Assembly (NCBI RefSeq): GCF_000711225.1
Contig: NZ_JOMG01000002.1
Coordinates: forward strand, 1,996,501-2,060,500
Reading direction: 5' to 3'
Origin: Pelobacter seleniigenes DSM 18267
GTDB lineage: Bacteria > Desulfobacterota > Desulfuromonadia > Desulfuromonadales > Geopsychrobacteraceae
DNA length: 64,000 nt
Position numbers and translations under genes: made by a program. Of this stretch, positions 60,698-64,000 are shown piece after piece. The notes below the pieces were generated by a model. It made no database searches. It was not told where the DNA came from and saw only the letters and a list, made by a program, of their open reading frames with translations. The number at the start of each line of letters is the position of its first letter. The stretch's first letter is position 1.

Positions 60698-60817
60698 GCG
60701 TTCTCCCCTCCGTTTTCCTGAATTTTCTTGCCTCAGTCAACTTTTCGTTTAAAAATGCCTTATTTAACCCGTTCTGTCCGTTTCTCCTGGGGGCAGGCTT
60801 GTCATTGAGGAGGCGTT

Positions 60818-61759
60818 ATGGCGCGTAAACCGCGACTGCATTTCCCCGGAGCCGTCTATCATGTGACCCTGCAGGGGAACGCCCGCCAGCAGGTGTTTAC
60901 CGACGCTATCGACCGGACCCGTTTTCTGCTGCTGATTCAGGAAGGGATCGAAAAATTCGGTCATCGGGTCCATGCCTACTGCCTGCTGGCGGACCGGCTG
61001 CGGCTGGTGGTCGAAGTCGACGAAGTGCCCCTGGCGCGCATCATGCAGCAGCTCGGGTTCCGCTACACTCGCTGGTTCAACGACTGGCACGGCCAGATCG
61101 GCCATCTCTTTCAGGGTCGCTACAAAGCGATCCTCATTGATCCGGAACAGTACCTGCTGCCCCTGGTCCGCGATCTGCACGTCAATCCGCTCCGGGAAAG
61201 ACTCGCCGCAGATCCGATGCATTACCCCTGGAGCAGCCATCGCGCCTATTGTGGCCGCGAGACCGTCCCCTGGCTGAGCCGCGAACGGACCTTCCTCGGC
61301 ATCGAAGACACCGGCATCCGCGCACTGATGAAATTCCACGCCTATGTCAATGAAGGCCTGACTCCGGCGGAGACCAGCGATTTTTCCACCGGCGGAAGCT
61401 ATGATCCGCGCATCCTTGGCGAAGAGGATTTCGTGCGCGGAGTGATGAAGCTGTCGCGACAGAAATACCGTCCCAAAATCGGTGCCGAGCGGGTCGACCG
61501 GTTGATCCAGGAGCGCTTTCGCCTGACCGAGCAGGAACTGGCCGCGCCCGGTAAAAATCGCGCCTGCGCCGATGCCCGGGCCTGCTGGGCCTGGCTCTAC
61601 CTGGAAACCGGCTGCGCCACCCTGACCACCCTGGGCGACCGTCTCGGCCGCGACGTCTCCTCCCTGAGTTCCGCGGTCCGGCGCCTGCAACTCAAAGCCA
61701 AAACCGACCCGGCCGTCGCCGACCGGCTGCAAAAACTGCTTAACCGGCTGCAGCGTTGA
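60818..61759 (+). CDS. RAYT/Y1_Tnp-type protein with degenerate active site and DnaA-IV-like tail
   Basis: This 313-residue protein has the REP-associated transposase fold (FPGAVYHVTLQGNARQ, HLFQGRYKAILI, YLLPLVRDLHVNPLRERL, PWSSHRAY). The usual HUH metal motif (NHxH in relatives) reads DRLR here at 59-62, so both histidines are replaced by arginine. The catalytic tyrosine position in the RYIxxNP helix is Asp119. After about residue 222 comes a tail like DnaA domain IV, with GDRLGRDVSSLSSAVRRL as the DNA-binding helix-turn-helix. Such tails exist in known RAYTs of this lineage, but this copy should not cut DNA. It may bind DNA as a regulator. GAGGAGG precedes the ATG. Confidence 0.85.
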   Translation: MARKPRLHFPGAVYHVTLQGNARQQVFTDAIDRTRFLLLIQEGIEKFGHRVHAYCLLADRLRLVVEVDEVPLARIMQQLGFRYTRWFNDWHGQIGHLFQGRYKAILIDPEQYLLPLVRDLHVNPLRERLAADPMHYPWSSHRAYCGRETVPWLSRERTFLGIEDTGIRALMKFHAYVNEGLTPAETSDFSTGGSYDPRILGEEDFVRGVMKLSRQKYRPKIGAERVDRLIQERFRLTEQELAAPGKNRACADARACWAWLYLETGCATLTTLGDRLGRDVSSLSSAVRRLQLKAKTDPAVADRLQKLLNRLQR

Positions 61760-61879
61760 GCTTGCGGCAGGGTAGCTTGCCGATGAGGTAGAACCCTTTA
61801 TACTGATTTCAGTTTACGGTGTTTGAACCCGATGACTTGTGGAGGGGTGGGTGAAGACAGAAGAAATTTACAGCTGATT

Positions 61880-61913
61880 GCGCACATGGATTTTGCAGCC
61901 ATGTGCGTTTTTT
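61880..61913 (+). terminator. Intrinsic terminator between the RAYT gene and the next gene
   Basis: CGCACATGG (61880-61888) and CCATGTGCG (61898-61906) form a nine-base stem with a nine-base loop, followed by seven T residues. It ends RAYT-gene transcription, or that of a short RNA starting after 61760. Confidence 0.9.
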
Positions 61914-61982
61914 TGTGGTTGAAGCGCCGGATTAGTTATTTCTTCATTGGTTGTGTGACTTATTTTGACGCAATGGACGGAT

Positions 61983-62007
61983 AGATTCTGAGAGAATCTG
62001 TTCTCAG
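61983..62007 (+). promoter_or_regulatory. Overlapping palindromes at the 5' end of the 62016 gene
   Basis: AGATTCT-GAG-AGAATCT (61983-61999) and CTGAGA...TCTCAG (61988-61993, 62002-62007) are mutually exclusive. The second ends in the first bases of the AGGAGGG ribosome site. They could be an operator or a translation-control hairpin for the gene and cas3 downstream. Confidence 0.4.
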
Positions 62008-62015
62008 GAGGGACC

Positions 62016-62465
62016 ATGTCTGACAAACACACACTCCGGACCATCACCCGCCGACTGCTACGCTGTCGAGAGTGGTTTCTCAACGTTATCGGCAAGGTTT
62101 TAAGCTGCGGAAACAAATACTTTGCGGTTTATGTGGCTGGAGTGGTGGTGATCTGTATTGGCTGGTTATTTCAGGCTGGTTCTCTCTTTCTGGCGGTTGT
62201 ATTGGGTGGGCTGTGCGGATGGTGGTTGGCCTATGCCCTGGCCTTTTTGGCTTTGCTGGCGTTCAAGCTGTTTCTTCCCCTGTTCGATCTGTGCTTTTTG
62301 CCGGTCATCCTGCTTGGCCGCTGTTATGGATACCGTTCTGCGGGGATCTCTGCCAGGGCGTATTTCGCTGATGTTTTTGCACCGTTGGAGATCAACGGGG
62401 TGCTCAGGTTGGTGCTGGCTCTGTTTGGGGTTGAGTTGATTTTTGGGGTGTTGGGGGATGATTAG
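62016..62465 (+). CDS. Small integral membrane protein immediately upstream of cas3
   Basis: This 149-residue protein starts with a basic, cytosolic N-terminus (KHTLRTITRRLLRCREWF), followed by three hydrophobic segments (YFAVYVAGVVVICIGWLF, LFLAVVLGGLCGWWLAYALAFLALLAF and FDLCFLPVILLG). After a polar stretch a last hydrophobic segment ends the protein (VLRLVLALFGVELIFGVL). It does not match a Cas family I recognise. Its ATG follows AGGAGGG and its stop lies 17 bp before the cas3 ATG, so the two are likely co-transcribed. Whether it is part of the CRISPR-Cas system is an open question. Confidence 0.6.
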   Translation: MSDKHTLRTITRRLLRCREWFLNVIGKVLSCGNKYFAVYVAGVVVICIGWLFQAGSLFLAVVLGGLCGWWLAYALAFLALLAFKLFLPLFDLCFLPVILLGRCYGYRSAGISARAYFADVFAPLEINGVLRLVLALFGVELIFGVLGDD

Positions 62466-62482
62466 AGGGAGGAGGGAAGGTG

Positions 62483-64000
62483 ATGGAAACCTATTACGCA
62501 CATTCGACGGAGAGTCCTGATAAGTCAGGCTGGCAGACGCTGGAAGATCATCTTCAGGGAGTCGCCGGATTAGCCAGAGGATTTGCCGCGGTGTTTGGTG
62601 CTGCTGACTGGGGGGAGTTGGCCGGGTTGCTGCATGACGTCGGCAAGGCAACAGCTGCTTTTCAGCGCCGGTTGGAAGGGAATTCCCAGCGGGTCGATCA
62701 CACGACTTTTGGTGCGCGGTTGGCTCGTGAGCATGGTGGGCCACTTGGGCCGCTGCTTTCCTATATGATCACCGGCCACCACGGGGGATTGCCGGATGGC
62801 GGTGCCCAGGAGACAGAGCTGCACTGGCGGCTGAAGTACGGCAAGGTTCCCGAAGATGCATCGTTGCTGCCGTCGATTGAGTTGCAGAATGTGTTGCGCT
62901 GGCCGTTGGAAAAACCGGAAGAAAAAACGGCTGGATTCAGCATGGCATTTTTCACGCGGATGATTTTTTCCTGTCTGGTCGATGCAGACTTTTTGGATAC
63001 GGAAACATTTTGTACGCCGGAAAAAGCTGCACTAAGATCCTCTTTTGATTGTCAGCAGCTAGTCGATCTGCGGGAGAAGCTAAACCTCCATCTGCAAAAG
63101 CTCACGCAAAAGGCCGAACCAACACCGGTGAATCGGCTCCGCCAAGCCATCCTGCAGCAATGCCGGACCAAGGCCGAGCTTGCCCCACAGGTTTTTTCTC
63201 TGACCGTGCCGACTGGCGGAGGGAAAACTCTTTCGTCGCTGGCGTTCGCCCTTGATCACGCCGTTGCCAACAAGTTGCAACGGGTGATCTATGCCATTCC
63301 CTTCACCTCGATCATTGAGCAGAATGCCAGGGTGTTTCAGGATATTCTCGGTCGCGAATCGGTCTTGGAGCATCACTGCAATTACAAAGAAAAAGACGAG
63401 CCGGAAGAGGCGGTTTACAACCGGCGGCGTGGGCTGGCGACGGAAAATTGGGATGCACCGGTCGTGGTGACAACCAATGTGCAGTTTTTCGAATCGTTAT
63501 TCAGCAACAAGCCGTCCCGTTGTCGCAAACTGCACAATATTGCTGGCAGTGTCATCGTGCTGGACGAAGCGCAGGCGATTCCGACCGAATACCTGGAACC
63601 CTGTCTGGCGGCTTTGCGTGAATTGGTTGAGCGCTACGGGTGTTCGTTGGTGCTCTGCACGGCAACCCAGCCCGCTCTGGACGATAGCGCACTGCGTAAT
63701 CGGCTGCCGAAAATCCATGAAGTTATTGAGAGACCGCAACAGCTATATACTGACTTGCGCCGCACCGAGGTTACGTTTATCGGTAAGCTGACCAACGGAG
63801 AATTGGCCGAACGGTTGGCAGCGGATGAGCAGGTCCTCTGTATTGTGTCTACCAAGCCTCAGGCGCGTAAACTGTTCGAGATGTTGCCGCCAAGCGAAGG
63901 CAATTTTCATCTCTCCACCAATATGTATCCCGAGCATCGTCGCCAAGTACTGGACACAATTCGATTGCGTCTAAAACAGAACATGTCCTGCCGAGTTATT
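62483..64000 (+). CDS. cas3: CRISPR-associated helicase-nuclease Cas3 (partial; type I, probably I-C)
   Basis: This gene runs off the right edge; 506 codons are visible. The N-terminal HD nuclease has YYAHSTESPDK, LLHDVGKATAAFQRRLEG (His51, Asp52) and ITGHHGGLPDG (about 97-105). The superfamily 2 helicase follows with VPTGGGKTLSSLAFAL (Walker A 243-249), VIVLDEAQAIP (DEAQ 361-364), and CTATQPAL (motif III). Cas3 degrades DNA targeted by Cascade. The opening resembles type I-C Cas3, but the effector genes lie beyond the edge. It starts 17 bp after the membrane-protein gene, with GGAGGGAAGG before the ATG. Confidence 0.93.
   Translation, partial: METYYAHSTESPDKSGWQTLEDHLQGVAGLARGFAAVFGAADWGELAGLLHDVGKATAAFQRRLEGNSQRVDHTTFGARLAREHGGPLGPLLSYMITGHHGGLPDGGAQETELHWRLKYGKVPEDASLLPSIELQNVLRWPLEKPEEKTAGFSMAFFTRMIFSCLVDADFLDTETFCTPEKAALRSSFDCQQLVDLREKLNLHLQKLTQKAEPTPVNRLRQAILQQCRTKAELAPQVFSLTVPTGGGKTLSSLAFALDHAVANKLQRVIYAIPFTSIIEQNARVFQDILGRESVLEHHCNYKEKDEPEEAVYNRRRGLATENWDAPVVVTTNVQFFESLFSNKPSRCRKLHNIAGSVIVLDEAQAIPTEYLEPCLAALRELVERYGCSLVLCTATQPALDDSALRNRLPKIHEVIERPQQLYTDLRRTEVTFIGKLTNGELAERLAADEQVLCIVSTKPQARKLFEMLPPSEGNFHLSTNMYPEHRRQVLDTIRLRLKQNMSCRVI

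Follow-up and report, generated by a model that had tools for sequence, protein, structure and literature searches.

A catalytically dead Y1 transposase homolog with one conserved transposon end looks like a self-regulating DNA-binding protein

The gene, its domains and its surroundings

The window analysed here is a stretch of 64,000 nucleotides from Pelobacter seleniigenes DSM 18267 (contig NZ_JOMG01000002.1). At 60818..61759 on the plus strand, which also carries all features of the gene given below, it encodes a protein of 313 amino acids with an ATG start. The open reading frame is that of a catalytically dead homolog of Y1 transposases of the RAYT/TIRYT type, with open orthologs in 19 of 20 genomes. 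A ribosome-binding site, GAGGAGG, was recognised by eye ahead of the ATG at 60807..60813, in agreement with the preliminary description of this DNA, which had noted a good ribosome site. The gene upstream encodes RNase E/G, and on the downstream side a small ORF separates the gene from one that is Cas3-like. A perfect 9-bp stem with a 9-base loop, followed by a T-run, was seen by eye at 61881-61914 and is likely the terminator after the gene.

The N-terminal part of the protein (aa 13-107, 60854..61138) matched the Pfam domain Y1_Tnp (Transposase IS200-like, PF01797) with 35.2 bits at a cut-off of 23. The NCBIfam model REP_Tyr_transpos reached 47.2 bits at a cut-off of 80. The tail (aa 224-289, 61487..61684) resembles the helix-turn-helix domain IV of DnaA; here the domain IV profile Bac_DnaA_C scored 23.7 bits, under its cut-off of 31.5, and the NCBIfam DnaA model at the C-terminus (E 3.2e-7) was likewise below cut-off. 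When a profile of 14 orthologs was compared with solved structures, the DNA-binding domain of DnaA (3pvp) was matched over aa 221-313 with an E-value of 1e-6, and Foldseek with the predicted model ranked the same structure first (E 1.2e-4, 29% identity) and the RAYT-REP structure 4er8 fourth (E 4.1e-3). The model had a mean pLDDT of 55, with a poor Y1 half and a tail that alone was usable, and the catalytic pocket was therefore assessed from alignment instead. Within the tail, the recognition-helix signature GRDVSSLSSAVRRLQ (aa 277-291, 61646..61690) is nearly invariant in 14 aligned orthologs and aligns to GRDHTT of DnaA. The protein has both the Y1_Tnp core that marks TnpA-Y1/RAYT proteins and the DnaA-IV-like/HTH tail that marks TIRYTs. 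The AAA+ domain that stands before domain IV in DnaA gave no match in a Pfam profile search.

A CRISPR-Cas locus occupies 62480-64000 of the window and extends into the continuation of the contig (L147), where it includes a 31-copy repeat array; it is assigned to type I-C by Csd1, and its other cas genes were recognised by eye. Among the six genomes that have both Csd1 and the dead gene, two (G031, G037) have the downstream side within about 550 and 150 bp of a contig end. The Cas5 protein of L047 is ~30% identical to those of L046 from Desulfuromusa kysingii, L048 and the window, whereas the dead-transposase orthologs at these loci are 70-78% identical, so that different I-C systems may have reached the same neighbourhood, a possible hotspot. 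In L039, L041, L046 and L047 the dead gene is followed, at 0.2-0.7 kb, by a second, different gene that resembles a Y1 transposase (NHFH motif, by eye). Genome G000 contains two IS200-like transposase genes (L001 at C5:395366 and L002 at C5:443955) with identical Pfam scores of 140.6 bits, which are presumably copies of one insertion sequence.

Loss of the catalytic residues in a single clade

In the alignment to intact relatives (41-48% identity), residues D59, R60, L61 and R62 (60992..61003) take the place of the HUH motif, which reads N-H-x-H in those relatives or T-H-x-H in L036, where a Thr stands in place of the Asn before the first His. Asp119 (61172..61174) takes the place of the catalytic tyrosine, which is present in 14 of 14 intact relatives and in none of the 20 dead orthologs. 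This bears out the preliminary description, which had read both HUH histidines and the tyrosine as replaced; it had also considered that an intact HUH motif might lie elsewhere in the protein, and no second H-x-H in a matching context was seen by eye on the translation. Asn123 (61184..61186), the Asn of Y---NP and third metal-ligand position (PMC6006769), is by alignment retained in the window and is Ala, Ser, Thr or Leu in 19 of 19 other orthologs.

Both HUH histidines occur together in none of the 20 orthologs, and the motif is thus broken in all of them; one of the two survives in four (H60 in L038 and L049, H62 in L048 and L020). The tyrosine position holds D, E, H, A or Q, and the letters at 60, 62 and 119 differ between lineages of dead orthologs. 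The preliminary description had suggested a search for orthologs with the same replacements; the same loss was indeed found across the whole clade, but the replacing residues are not one shared set. Both His, the Tyr and the following Asn-Pro are all kept in 14 family- and order-level relatives (L033-L036, L051-L060), and likewise in seven loci of the phylum search (L149-L155), of which L149 and L154 are copies from a single genome and L155 belongs to the same order as the window. These 21 intact loci are the ones fetched for the best matches and represent a subset of all matches.

A search of the family gave matches at E <= 1e-50 in 24 of 44 genomes. Twenty of the 44, the window's genome included, carry a full-length dead ortholog, in one copy per genome at this threshold and with 65-75% identity in the other 19, and four further genomes hold a relative of 42-45% identity that has retained the Tyr together with N-H-x-H (L033, L034, L035) or T-H-x-H (L036). 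One of these four also contains L037, a fragment that passes over into a different protein and resembles an assembly chimera. The reading frame is open in 19 of the 20 full-length orthologs, the exception being L020 with an in-frame TAA at codon 179. Orthologs as close as these were found outside the family neither among 136 genomes of the order, where the best match had 48% identity, nor among 395 genomes drawn from the phylum; the phylum sample gave eight matches at E <= 1e-80, and only the window's genome and one genome of the same family fell within the dead clade. Viral contigs, searched for more remote relatives, gave 1 locus. In a tree of 34 proteins (19 dead and 15 intact, L020 and L037 being left out) all dead proteins lie on one side of a branch supported at 100/100; the stem of this clade is 1.06 changes per column long, and its tips measure 0.04-0.23.

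Omega was 0.04-0.135 by NG86 and 0.05-0.16 by YN00 in 10 pairs of dead orthologs, out of 171 pairs of which the calculation gave no value for the other 161. A pseudogene is ruled out by the 19 open frames together with the NG86 values of these 10 pairs, and the decaying orthologs that the preliminary description had named as grounds against its own reading are not what we see, since omega is well below 1. Median omega was lowest for the DnaA-like domain (0.049, 10 pairs), followed by the Y1 domain (0.079, 10 pairs) and the linker (0.14, 9 pairs). Column 60, where the first catalytic His stood, is invariant in 14 intact relatives and ranks first of 313 in entropy among 19 dead proteins, with 3.37 bits and 12 residue types. 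Taken together, the four catalytic columns 60, 62, 119 and 123, all of them invariant in the intact set, are freer in the dead clade than draws from 60 intact-invariant columns (0 of 20,000 as high), a test that is descriptive as the sequences share kinship. When variability is scaled to the mean of each group, the dead clade holds its DnaA-like domain more tightly than intact relatives do, with 2.6% of windows of equal length being as low. The HUH strand has shifted towards less constraint (a value as high in 6.4% of windows), and the tyrosine helix leans weakly the same way (15% of windows). Judging from these figures on column freedom and domain constraint, selection has let go of the active site and has held the remainder, the DNA-binding tail most of all. 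The idea of a domesticated protein kept by selection for DNA binding without cutting, as proposed in the preliminary description, is well supported by a single clade, purifying selection, a released active site and constraint towards the DnaA-IV-like domain, with the binding itself being predicted from sequence.

The conserved left end and the missing right end

Ahead of the gene, 17 of the 20 orthologs share a sharply delimited footprint around GGGGCAGGCTTG. In an alignment on GGGGCAGGCTTG of 18 upstream regions, namely those of the 17 full-length orthologs and the L037 fragment, the block RGGGGCAGGCTTGYRAT reached 2.0 bits in 13 of the 16 columns after R, and outside it the values were 0.0-1.1 bits per column over 59 upstream columns, with 1.3 bits in the last one. 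The window's site, GGGGCAGGCTTGTCAT at 60790..60805, deviates from this consensus at the R before AT, where it has C for A/G. Based on the ortholog footprint and the repeats of intact relatives, it is probably an operator left over from an ancestral left terminal inverted repeat, and it has one base fewer than GGGGTCAGGCTTG. Sixteen of the 20 orthologs match the 12-mer of the site exactly and L017 differs from it at one base; the three genomes of the Pelovirga group lack it. Between site and ATG lie 28-61 bp, with no more than 40 bp in 15 of 17 orthologs. Since these spacings differ by non-multiples of three, the conserved block is not coding.

The 16-base site with at most one mismatch has exactly one match each in 20 of the 44 family genomes. 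Seventeen of these matches, that is one per genome in every family genome with both gene and site, lie at the dead gene, one lies at the L037 fragment and two lie elsewhere (G021, G038); a reversed control pattern gave 1 match in all 44 genomes at the same stringency. The exact 12-mer also occurs elsewhere, for example as a second match in G006 and as single matches in genomes without the gene. In the window's genome the 16-mer with up to two mismatches had 36 matches, compared with 14 for the reversed pattern, and only two other matches had a single mismatch. Strict-match targets besides the promoter of the dead gene itself were not found.

The origin of the site is indicated by the intact relatives. 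In 12 of 12 family and order loci with enough upstream sequence we found GGGGTCAGGCTTG or a variant with 1-2 mismatches at -44, -52 or -53, mostly at -44, and in seven of seven phylum-search loci GGGGTCAGGC at -44, -45 or -53. These left repeats fit the GGGGWSAS repeat described for TIRYT elements (PMC3733652). L009, a more distant RAYT in the window's own genome, has no such repeat within 350 bp. The T of GGGGTCAGG is missing in 17 of 17 sites of the dead clade. Exact GGGGTCAGGCTTG occurs once in the window's genome, within a coding sequence, and there are five further matches with one mismatch.

The three Pelovirga-group loci without the conserved site (L030, L031, L050) show a GTAGGGGC...-type palindrome between RNase G and the dead gene. 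This GTAG-type palindrome is of low copy number in the group, with 2, 5 and 7 matches at up to two mismatches in G041, G043 and G040, and in L030 it contains a one-mismatch look-alike of the site at -121. In L038, L039, L048 and L049 the dead gene is divergent from a gene of cluster c4, and the site thus lies between divergent genes; in three of these four loci c4 adjoins c11, and the two appear by eye from their sequences to be a phosphate-transporter-like pair.

In 13 of the 18 upstream regions the best sigma-70-like pair has a TG-extended -10-like element and stops 9-14 bp short of the site, and L041, L042 and L045 have a lower-scoring promoter pair at the same place (by eye). The mean promoter score is modestly above that of shuffled sequences, being reached by 2.3% of shuffled sets. 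At the expected place in the window no convincing promoter was seen; the best pair there matches 6 of 12 positions, and another scan gave none. A conserved RNA fold over the site was not detected in five sequences, with z-scores of -0.94 to 1.41.

Nine of 14 intact relatives have a right terminal inverted repeat (0-1 mismatch) that spans the stop codon, and in L055 and L057 it is near the stop; a contig end truncates L036, and L056 and L058 have none. The corresponding place in the window, 61748..61800, lacks such a repeat (best match with 6 mismatches of 13), and none was found within 350 bp at up to 2 mismatches. In 19 of 20 members of the dead clade the right repeat has at least 4 mismatches of 13 from 40 bases before to 60 bases after the stop (less for L030). 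The exception is L042, where a sequence resembling the right repeat (1 mismatch) is found 16 bp past the stop. It seems to fall within the opening codons of the following gene and, as one case in 20 orthologs, may be due to chance. Where TIRYTs have repeats of the GGGGWSAS type on both sides, the window has the left site GGGGCAGG alone. With the left end frozen and the right end gone in the dead clade, the left end, one base shorter, is what selection kept.

Possible functions and comparison with known systems

A transposase-derived, catalytically dead gene that persists across a family of anaerobic bacteria, mostly with one frozen transposon end shortly before its start codon, suggests a self-regulating DNA-binding protein. 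The locus looks like that of an immobilised dead transposase which kept one transposon end as the probable operator at its own promoter. We propose that a single capture of a TIRYT-type Y1 transposase, with a Y1 core and a DnaA-IV-like tail, took place in an ancestor belonging to the family. The sequences show that its catalytic pocket was destroyed by loss of at least one HUH His and the Tyr, and usually of the metal-binding Asn too; that the right transposon end disappeared from the place it normally occupies, with the gene inherited in single copy and constrained; and that the left end, one base shorter, is preserved as a site of 16-17 bp shortly before the start codon. The protein would bind this site as double-stranded DNA via its DnaA-IV-like helix-turn-helix, with the dead Y1 core possibly acting as a dimer or scaffold module. 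In this way it would control the transcription of its own gene, and auto-repression would be the simplest mode, given that the site is expected to cover the transcript's start. Any further targets would be few or more degenerate, and the silencing of incoming related elements might be the most natural secondary role. We regard this explanation as a whole, from capture and dead pocket to frozen left end and autoregulation, as fairly probable, and another protein could also be the binder of the site. Points that speak against it are the three Pelovirga-group orthologs without the site, the window's poor promoter and its deviating C next to the site, the sub-threshold Bac_DnaA_C score and the right-repeat-like sequence of L042.

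The dead protein might instead be a transposition-immunity factor that occupies the repeats of incoming active relatives and blocks the transposase or its promoter, with its own site serving for feedback. The operator derives from those relatives' repeats, and within the order 0 of 20 dead-gene genomes contain a relative from outside the clade (E <= 1e-50), compared with 31 of 116 others (Fisher p 0.007), although this count is confounded by shared ancestry, all 20 genomes being of one family, and the 31 include partial matches whose catalytic residues were checked in part of them. The base missing from all 17 dead-clade sites, however, implies that recognition may have left the live repeats, and a fixed one-base deletion speaks against binding to the intact repeats of relatives. 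The single exact GGGGTCAGGCTTG of the window's genome, located inside a coding sequence, also argues against such a role, which we consider possible but rather unlikely.

It is improbable that the protein regulates neighbouring genes, such as the type I-C CRISPR-Cas operon starting 0.7 kb downstream. Csd1/Cas8c is encoded 4.0-5.1 kb downstream on the same strand in four of six dead-gene genomes that have Csd1/Cas8c, but the genes between differ, and 14 of the 20 dead-gene genomes, some of them incomplete assemblies, gave no Csd1 match at E <= 0.001. Moreover, no operator-like site was found before cas3 in window 61701-62600, where the best match had 6 mismatches of 16.

Slightly less probable still is a DnaA-like replication protein whose tail binds DnaA boxes or origin DNA. 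The tail does match DnaA domain IV and keeps the GRD of the DnaA signature, but GRDHTT has become GRDVSS in the window protein. The His and Thr of GRDHTT contact bases in DnaA, and a specificity other than for DnaA boxes is therefore expected. The intact relatives, furthermore, have the same kind of tail, an AAA+ match is lacking, and the conserved site is unlike the DnaA-box consensus TT[AT]TNCACA (PMC6006769). A role at palindromic sites (REP/MITE) or in replication, as put forward in the preliminary description, found no support in these analyses, the conserved site being a derivative of the left terminal inverted repeat and neither REP nor DnaA box.

Least probable is a slowly decaying, functionless remnant, which could draw on the stop codon in L020 and on the absence of the gene from some nearly complete family genomes (e.g. 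G001, G010, G030, G042) but is contradicted by 19 of 20 open frames, omega far below 1, a nearly invariant helix-turn-helix and a frozen upstream site.

Returning to the self-regulating DNA-binding protein, to our knowledge bacterial transposases domesticated after catalytic loss have rarely been documented. Among titles and abstract openings of the literature searched we found no catalytically dead RAYT/TIRYT recognised as a regulator, which is no claim of absence from print. The chances appear evenly balanced that the clade represents a new route to a bacterial transcription factor, in which a HUH/Y1 transposase lost catalysis once, one transposon end became the sole operator and selection shifted from the active site to the DnaA-IV-like tail, giving a Y1 counterpart of nuclease-dead TnpB repressors that is maintained family-wide as an autoregulated DNA-binding protein. 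With a precise 16-bp site and a before/after comparison between intact relatives with two ends and a dead clade with one, the change from transposase to regulator can be studied stepwise.

Among known systems, the nearest sequence relatives of the window protein appear to be of the TIRYT type. It shares with TIRYT/subclass 2.1 proteins, the TIRtron transposases (PMC3733652, PMC6006769), a Y1 core followed by a Bac_DnaA_C-like tail and a left repeat before the start codon, and TnpA-Y1 subclass 2.1 is known to have Bac_DnaA_C or HTH tails (PMC6006769). TIRYTs, however, possess HUH, Tyr and repeats on both sides, many of them GGGGWSAS (PMC3733652, PMC6006769), with the catalytic residues conserved in all those aligned (PMC3733652), whereas the dead protein is without catalytic residues and right repeat and its left site is one base shorter. 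A survey of Y1 sequences kept 722 of 924 with a complete core containing both HuH and Y motifs and took missing core motifs as non-function (PMC6006769). The dead clade is an exception to this, and shows that Y1 sequences without core catalytic motifs can be under strong selection.

RAYT/TnpA-REP proteins are likewise HUH-fold Y1 transposases regarded as domesticated (PMC8266576), but TnpA-REP is still catalytic and associated with REP palindromes, whereas the dead protein has no catalytic residues and showed no link to REP in the analyses made here. With DnaA it has in common a tail that aligns over nearly the whole of domain IV (3pvp), and it differs from DnaA in having no AAA+ domain, other residues in the GRDHTT signature and another conserved site. 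TldR proteins are RNA-guided and derived from TnpB. Like these nuclease-dead TnpB repressors (PMC13418256), the dead Y1/HUH protein is transposon-derived, has lost its catalytic residues and is a putative transcription factor. Unlike TldR, it has its own helix-turn-helix and, as its probable operator, a fossil transposon end.
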